A stretch of DNA of 64,000 nucleotides from Hyphomonadaceae bacterium (GTDB lineage: Bacteria > Pseudomonadota > Alphaproteobacteria > Caulobacterales > Aquidulcibacteraceae): the NCBI GenBank assembly GCA_009773395.1, contig WRPI01000001.1, forward strand, positions 372,001-436,000, in the 5' to 3' direction. Shown here piece by piece: positions 61,746-63,363 of the stretch. The position numbers and the translations under genes are program-made. The notes beneath the pieces were generated by a model that saw only the letters and a list, made by a program, of their open reading frames with translations, did no database searches and was not told where the DNA came from. Position 1 is the first letter of the stretch; each line of letters opens with the position of its first letter.

Positions 61746-62549
61746 ATGAAAAAAATCAAAATCGCCACTTGGAATATCAATTCGGTTCGGCTTCGCGCGG
61801 GTTCAGTTGCCGAATTCGTAAAATTGGCGCAGCCAGATATATTATGCCTTCAAGAAATTAAATGCCGAAATGAAGAGTTTCCGTCTAATGCTTTTATACA
61901 AATGGGCTTGCCGCATTTGGTGATTCGCGGGCAAAAAGGCTGGCATGGCGTTGCGATTGCTTCAAAATTCCCATTACAAGAACTTACTGAGCCTCAATTT
62001 TGTATGCATGAACATGCGAGAGTTGCGGCGGCGCAAATTGGCGATAATGGTCCAATTATTCACAATCTTTATGTCCCAGCGGGCGGCGATATTCCTAATG
62101 CGGAAGAAAATGAAAAATTCGCGCATAAATTGGATTTTCTAGGCAAAATGGAAAGTTTTTATTCCGCCAACAAGCACAAAAACCATATTGTGGTTGGGGA
62201 TCTTAATATAGCACCCCATGAGCATGATGTTTGGTCTCACAGAGCGCTTTTGGATGTCGTAAGCCATACTCCGATTGAAACTGAACTTTTGGAGGTTTTG
62301 CGCAAAGGCGGTAATTTAATTGATATTGCGCGCGCCGCACACACTATGGACGAAAAGCTGTTTTCATGGTGGTCATACCGTAGTGCCGATTGGACGGCAA
62401 ATAATCGTGGCAGGCGGCTGGATCACATTTGGCTTAGCGAAAAAATCGCCCCAACAGCGGATTTAGCGAGTTTTACTATTCACCGCGAAACAAGATCTTG
62501 GGAGAAACCGTCGGACCATGTGCCTGTGAGTTTGGAAATTGAGGTTTAG
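61746..62549 (+). CDS. xthA: Exodeoxyribonuclease III
   Basis: KIATWNINSVRLRAGSV, ILCLQEIKC, HIVVGDLNIAPHEHDVW, RRLDHIWLS, SDHVPVSLEI. Confidence 0.95.
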   Translation: MKKIKIATWNINSVRLRAGSVAEFVKLAQPDILCLQEIKCRNEEFPSNAFIQMGLPHLVIRGQKGWHGVAIASKFPLQELTEPQFCMHEHARVAAAQIGDNGPIIHNLYVPAGGDIPNAEENEKFAHKLDFLGKMESFYSANKHKNHIVVGDLNIAPHEHDVWSHRALLDVVSHTPIETELLEVLRKGGNLIDIARAAHTMDEKLFSWWSYRSADWTANNRGRRLDHIWLSEKIAPTADLASFTIHRETRSWEKPSDHVPVSLEIEV

Positions 62550-62707
62550 GTCATGAACTCATTAAAAAGGGTGAAAAAGCCGTTAAAATGGCAAAATAGT
62601 GGGCGTGAAGATTGCGAAAAGAGGGTTTATCCCCTCTTTGAGTAAGATTTGCGCCCAATATGAAGCCATTTTTGCGGCTTTTCGAACTTTTTGATGAGTC
62701 CATGGCC
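62549..62707. mobile_element. 159-bp palindromic MITE-like element, copy 2
   Basis: GGTCATGAACTCATTAAAAAGGGTG ... GAACTTTTTGATGAGTCCATGGCC, TA at 62547-62548 and 62708-62709; same length as copy 1. Confidence 0.85.
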
Positions 62708-63363
62708 TATTGCGCTAGTTGATAGCCACCCTCTTGGGTTAATAATACTTCCTTTTGGCCAATAATTGTCGATAGTTTTTGTCGCAATTTATAAATATGG
62801 GTTTCCAAAGTGTGGGTGGTTACGCCTTTATTATAGCGCCAGACTTCGCGCAATAATTCCTCCCGCGTTACCGGGCTACCAGCCGCGCCGTTTAGATAGG
62901 TTAAAATCGCCACTTCTTTGTCGGTTAGTTTTAGTTCAACGCCATTGTTATTCGTCAGCGATTTGCGCACAGGGTTCAGCTCAAATCCTTCGATATTGAT
63001 AAGCGACATTTGCAGCGCTTCGCGCGCTCGCAATAGAAACCTTATTTTGGTCTCTAATTGGCCGAGCCTGATTGGTTTGGAAAAATGGTTGGCGGCAAAA
63101 TTTTCATTATTTGGTTTGTAGCGACCAATTGTAATTAAGGGAGTTTCGCCAAATTCTAGGTTTGAAACGGAAGCAAAATTATCACTATCCGAATCGATAA
63201 TTATCAAATCAGGATTAATTTCACTAATTTGTGCCACCAAATCATCGGCGCTCAAATCCACAGCAACCGCTTCAAATCCGCCTGCATCATTTAGCCAATC
63301 TACAAGTGCGCCAGAGGAGTCAGTGTCGAAATTAGCAATAATTATTTTGTGTTTTTGAAACAT
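62707..63363 (-). CDS. Response regulator with C-terminal winged-helix DNA-binding domain
   Basis: Receiver-like N-term PDLIIIDSDSDN; LKLTDKEVAILTYLNGAAGSPVTREELLREVWRYNKGVTTHTLETHIYKLRQKL. Confidence 0.88.
   Translation of the reverse strand: MFQKHKIIIANFDTDSSGALVDWLNDAGGFEAVAVDLSADDLVAQISEINPDLIIIDSDSDNFASVSNLEFGETPLITIGRYKPNNENFAANHFSKPIRLGQLETKIRFLLRAREALQMSLINIEGFELNPVRKSLTNNNGVELKLTDKEVAILTYLNGAAGSPVTREELLREVWRYNKGVTTHTLETHIYKLRQKLSTIIGQKEVLLTQEGGYQLAQ

Follow-up and report, generated by a model that had tools for sequence, protein, structure and literature searches.

The 64-kb window (the whole stretch of 64,000 nucleotides analysed here) holds a short palindromic element whose two edges coincide exactly with the stop codons of the genes on either side. 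This raises the question, posed by the first-pass annotation as a choice between two alternatives, of whether the element inserts at the TA of existing TAA or TAG stops, or truncates genes neutrally and supplies them with a new stop. The first copy, including both TA duplicates, occupies positions 62547..62709 (163 bases, no strand assigned; element proper, 62549-62707), begins with GG after the duplicated TA, and forms an almost perfect palindrome (DNA fold -45.8 kcal/mol, z -10.5). To its left, xthA, encoding exodeoxyribonuclease III (61716..62549, plus strand; PF03372, and TIGR00633 above the cut-off), ends in a TAG made of the left TA and the first G of the element (62547..62549, plus strand); its open reading frame starts with TTG, the ATG at 61746 being the likelier start. 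To its right, a response regulator gene with a Trans_reg_C DNA-binding domain (62707..63363, minus strand; PF00486) ends in a TAG made of the right TA and the element edge (62707..62709, minus strand). The second copy (19525..19687 with both TA duplicates, no strand assigned; G000:C7:391525-391687 in genome coordinates) likewise provides, with its right TA and edge, the TAG (19685..19687, minus strand) of msrA, the gene for peptide-methionine (S)-S-oxide reductase (19685..20353, minus strand, read from a TTG; PF01625, TIGR00401). The first-pass annotation was therefore exact, on direct reading of the sequence, in placing these three stops at TA plus G on the insertion edges and in counting three of the four flanking genes as ending on the junction. 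The exception is the gene for the ribonucleoside-diphosphate reductase alpha subunit (17722..19518, plus strand; NF006577), whose stop (19516-19518) lies ahead of the TA of the second copy.

Throughout the 2.63-Mb genome (17 contigs), 20 near-complete copies of 161-165 bp were identified, together with a few solo ends. Their alignment (mean column identity, 88%) shows two end types, TAGGTCA[C/T]RRACTCATT and TAGGGTCAGGACYCATT, with a palindromic core common to both, and TA is present on both sides in 17 of the 20 copies, the right TA being mutated in the other three. Being short, multi-copy and palindromic, flanked by target duplications and, at 161-165 bp, without room for a transposase, the element has the characters of a MITE. 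The full element was found in none of the 60 related genomes searched; the same-genus genome G001 carries other elements bearing both end types, and four element copies searched with their flanks matched no Rfam family. At two loci the right edge adjoins the apparent terminus of a further element, TAgggtcagATG immediately ahead of the next gene in one case (L017:1637-1650) and TAGCTCATAAACCCATTAAAA in the other (L018:1636-1660), suggesting possible nesting or repeated use of a CTAG made by an earlier copy.

A pattern scan located the ends of the element also in Hyphomicrobiales, in other Alphaproteobacteria and in a Desulfovibrionaceae MAG, and in part of these genomes they enclose insertion sequences (IS). 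In genome G178, an internally deleted IS with these ends retains a fragment of a PF13340 (IS4/5 family) transposase (L143:1501-2083), and plasmid pB of Ancylobacter polymorphus harbors an 832-bp IS (L173:603-1434) with two overlapping transposase ORFs, which sits in the context C-TA|GGCTCAGGACTCATT...AGGTCCTGAGCC|TA-G and whose ends match the TAGGCTCAGGACTC variant of the element ends. Similarly, IS427-group ISs of Paracoccus measure 832-865 bp, mostly with 2-bp duplications and in some cases with two overlapping ORFs (PMC3281130). The element shares with the IS427 group of the IS5 family (e.g. IS1248, the Paracoccus set of PMC3281130 and the Ancylobacter pB IS) the ends GG(G/C)TCAGGACTCATT and a 2-bp TA duplication at a CTAG/YTAR target. 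It differs from the group, whose members are of about 832 bp with the transposase in two overlapping ORFs (and a PF13340-type N-terminus in a relative), in being a near-perfect palindrome of 161-165 bp devoid of transposase. Since the ends are common to the IS of this group, as is TA duplication at CTAG/YTAR, the element is best explained as a MITE, old, palindromic and non-autonomous, that derives from an IS5-family, IS427-type IS. On an autonomous IS, the end type GGTCA[C/T]RRACTC was not seen in this analysis. A search with the G178 transposase fragment revealed no IS427-type transposase in the genome itself or in four same-genus relatives, and the transposase presumed to have driven the copies of this genome is taken, by analogy, from other genomes. 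An apparent IS on a 1.7-kb contig of the same genome (contig C3; L091), whose inverted repeats (CTAGCAGTTTGTCGGAGAGGG) are perfect over 21 bp and whose 454-aa DDE transposase is the sole PF01609 match, was ruled out as parent because these repeats are different. An IS630/Tc1-type origin, which would also involve TA duplication, was dropped, as the transposases found behind the element's ends are of IS5 type.

Tabulation of the stops at all 20 copies, a check proposed along with the initial observation, revealed that 14 of the 40 edges have a junction TAG that ends an ORF with a minimum length of 70 codons, or 13 once a 105-aa ORF at L018, which is probably spurious, is excluded. The 13 credible junction-stop genes, spread over 10 sites, encode XthA, the response regulator, a NUDIX protein, GpsA, an MCP, an Exo_endo_phos protein (Exo2), PurS, MsrA, a conserved protein (G13p), a histidine kinase, an IRK channel, an OmpA/PBP protein and a bactofilin. 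Overall, 10-11 of the 20 copies touch a stop, so that the refuting outcome named along with the initial observation, stops rarely touched by other copies, did not arise. Both edges act as stops at three sites (L001, L007 and L013), and six sites are tightly convergent, all in gene pairs no more than 5 bp apart with the element removed; some other copies lie in tandem or divergent gene arrangements. No recognisable gene body is interrupted by any of the 20 copies. The reading frames of a DUF547 gene (L015:1488-1506) and a MAPEG gene (L019:1493-1515) continue past the edge and terminate within the element, at a TAA and a TAG in its other two frames, so that the transposon codes for the last residues of both proteins.

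To compare C-termini, orthologues were located by chimaeric protein queries in four same-genus genomes without these insertions. The terminal position agrees with that of 4/4 relatives for XthA, GpsA, the OmpA-like protein, G13p and Exo2; for the NUDIX protein, PurS and the response regulator it agrees with some relatives and is shifted by no more than one residue in the others (for the response regulator, the same residue or one further, at TAA or TAG); and the MCP and bactofilin C-termini lie within two residues of the relatives' ends. The relatives' stops, including the TAG or TAA of xthA, are TAA or TAG in 45 of 48 cases (manual count) vs 71% in a sample of the element-bearing genome. Given this agreement with element-free relatives, whose stops are almost all TAA or TAG, the alignments show the element, wherever C-termini can be aligned and as far as sequence comparison can tell, to have entered existing stop codons with no gene truncation; most ends thus bear out the first of the two alternatives. 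Site L013 illustrates this at both edges: the genes for G13p and the histidine kinase are convergent in 4/4 relatives, with both stops on a single TA that reads TTAA, CTAA or TTAG, i.e. YTAR itself, and here the element sits inside that shared TA while each gene retains a TAG. A T now follows TA in the reconstructed empty sites of xthA and G13p, although the relatives stop there; with this third base no longer able to complete a stop, the old stop has been lost and the element's G is in use. MsrA and the IRK channel were left out of the comparison, their relatives being too distant (~40% and ~32% identity, respectively), and for msrA the sole indication of a putative insertion into an existing stop is its own empty site, which reads TAG.

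The base preceding TA is C at 20 and T at 12 of the 40 insertion edges of this genome, and C at 35 of 51 edges in other MITEs and at 16 of 17 in IS copies. YTAR, usually with C in front of the TA, is the favoured flank and a generic IS5/IS427-type target; beyond it no flank signal is evident except a mild G at -3. The neutral expectation was derived from a 464-kb sample, in which a home-made codon-usage gene caller defined 494 genes (88% coding; median convergent spacer, 16-19 bp) and the stops comprised 194 TAA, 148 TAG and 137 TGA; background-corrected target preferences replaced a weighting by raw base frequency. With gene bodies excluded, the TA of stop codons makes up 14-16% of weighted targets, and about 3 stop sites are expected from target preference and neutral space, as against 10 of 20 observed (P 1e-4 to 4e-4, this and the other stop-junction P values being post hoc and dependent on the home-made gene caller). 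The null per edge was 0.07-0.08 with target preference and called genes, and an ORF-only null limited to YTAR gave 22% per site (P = 0.006) and 12% (0.119) per edge (P = 5e-4). TAs common to two stops represent 0.4% of targets (expected, 0.08) and were seen at 3 of the 20 sites (P = 7e-5). When the two window copies that prompted the idea are set aside, stop junctions persist at 8 of the other 18 sites (P 0.0015-0.03) and at 10 of their 36 edges (P 0.0001-0.008). That the convergent sites all fall in pairs no more than 5 bp apart gave P = 3.5e-6, or 3e-4 with spacers capped at 300 bp; inside convergent spacers so capped, stop bias alone is weak (P 0.05-0.12, target-weighted). MITE edges in other genomes (including G001) close an ORF at 15 of 49, where 5.3 are expected (P = 1.4e-4), while IS copies with the element's ends show a stop at 0/18 edges; these IS come from two genomes only (G178 and G266), and most were seen from one side, at contig ends. 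With this genome's own copies pooled in, stop edges number 28/89 for MITEs vs 0/18 for IS (Fisher P = 0.003).

Taken together, the copies sit between duplicated TAs, favour YTAR with C before the TA, and begin with GG, and in about half of them the TA is that of a stop codon, which pre-existed wherever relatives allow testing, the protein end being unchanged. We consider the likely explanation to be a YTAR preference combined with the loss of gene-body insertions and with the incidental restoration of stops by the TA|G end. TAA and TAG stops already supply the TAR half of the target. TA|G rebuilds a TAG from such a stop, and where convergent stops share one YTAR the symmetrical ends do this for both genes; this would make stops harmless to enter, on either strand or on both, and copies landing inside genes would be lost by selection. 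In a compact genome (88% coding, with a median convergent spacer of 16 bp), stops would then form a sizeable part of the harmless targets, and insertions sparing both gene ends would be the least harmful of all. As 73-77% of preferred targets are coding and yet no gene body is interrupted, survivorship is clearly at work. An approximately threefold excess over the neutral expectation is not fully explained in this way, nor is the concentration in pairs no more than 5 bp apart, since long spacers should take most insertions; given the stop-site excess, the shared-stop TAs and the abutting pairs, neutrality alone may not suffice.

Among known systems, QMITE1 and QMITE2 of Coxiella (PMC5896051; reviewed in PMC10969869) resemble the element in being short, palindromic and multi-copy with TA ends. 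In one strain QMITE2 encodes the last 33 residues of enhC, whose stop lies just beyond (PMC5896051; PMC10969869), whereas the element described here lands on an existing stop and in many genes leaves the protein end unchanged. MITEAba12 (PMC6382973) is also an IS-mobilised bacterial MITE, one copy of which creates a stop in a gene, but it differs in its 9-bp duplication, its AT-rich targets without a motif, and a truncation that costs 398 residues. The pneumococcal SPRITE, RUP and BOX elements (PMC10969869), likened here by description rather than by sequence, are repeated hairpins too, with a terminator-like structure suggested for SPRITE; they differ in that stop-codon insertion is undescribed for them in PMC10969869. 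No earlier report of stop-preserving MITE insertion was found in the literature searched, most subscription papers being outside its reach. The simple, checkable rule that an element with GG ends which duplicates a 2-bp TA at YTAR targets rebuilds any TAA or TAG stop as TAG, on both strands, shows how a transposon can enter even overlapping genes and harm neither. If common to TA-duplicating elements that start with G, it would account for some of the MITE clustering at the 3' ends of genes where genomes are compact, and the release of the old third stop base would offer a relative clock for insertions.

The other explanations differ in how they fare against these data. Chance coincidence in a small sample could be invoked, as the initial observation rested on 3 of 4 edges and target preference alone lifts the rate; it is nevertheless extremely improbable, for the 18 copies outside the window still give 8 sites and 10/36 edges at the P values above, and MITEs in other genomes behave alike (P = 1.4e-4). 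Just as improbable is insertion inside coding sequence with a supply of premature stops, the second alternative of the first-pass annotation: the DUF547 and MAPEG genes, which run into the element and stop within it, do fit this description, but the alignable junction-stop genes end at the same residue as their element-free relatives, or no more than two away, and for them truncation is unsupported. A transposase or host factor that steers insertion towards stop codons or the 3' ends of genes would account for the excess over the neutral null, both here and in the MITEs with matching ends in other genomes (15/49 vs 5.3 expected). We regard this as very unlikely, however, since the flanks carry no evident signal past YTAR bar the mild G at -3, and since a stop is defined by its reading frame, which a transposase acting on DNA could not read. 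Because IS copies with matching ends lie at stops at none of 18 edges, the stops were probably not chosen by the transposase. What the first-pass annotation called targeting and a stop-codon-preserving strategy thus holds as an association with stops; read as a deliberate choice it claims too much, in view of the generic YTAR flank, the IS edges and survivorship.

It is possible, although doubtful, that copies have been retained for use as a portable, bidirectional gene end, supplying abutting convergent genes with a stop codon and with a hairpin to terminate or insulate transcription between them. This would agree with the number of stop-junction sites above the neutral null, the concentration of convergent sites in abutting pairs, and the lack of stop bias in IS copies with matching ends. 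Between the bactofilin and RF2 genes (L020), whose stops are 3 bp apart without the element, the spacer of three relatives (L209, L211 and L212) is 40-56 bp long and contains a bidirectional intrinsic terminator, which is absent here, the element being present instead; after the MCP stop (L007), a strong terminator is found in 4/4 relatives and only the element here. The hairpin is moreover conserved, with compensatory change in 19 pairs, but this could stem by descent from a palindromic master copy. The RNA fold of the element is very stable overall, with no clear U-tract terminator on scanning; a crude scan of the element, with a GC-rich stem and an immediate U-run on both strands as the pattern expected of such a gene end, gave weak or copy-specific matches and no intrinsic terminator that was both strong and consistent among copies. 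Furthermore, relatives mostly lack a strong terminator at the ends of xthA, the response regulator, GpsA and G13p, so that none is needed there, and several copies are in tandem or divergent positions. Domestication of the MITE as a gene end, with selection keeping copies in which the TA|G edges stand in for stops on both strands and the hairpin for a bidirectional terminator, accordingly seems to us rather unlikely. If true, domestication would have turned convergent pairs with shared stops into insulated ones, and whether such elements become terminators is a directly testable question. In the orientation of the first copy, the hairpin contains G-U wobbles at 21 positions vs A-C mismatches at 7, an asymmetry that hints that the RNA of one strand may be, or may once have been, folded.
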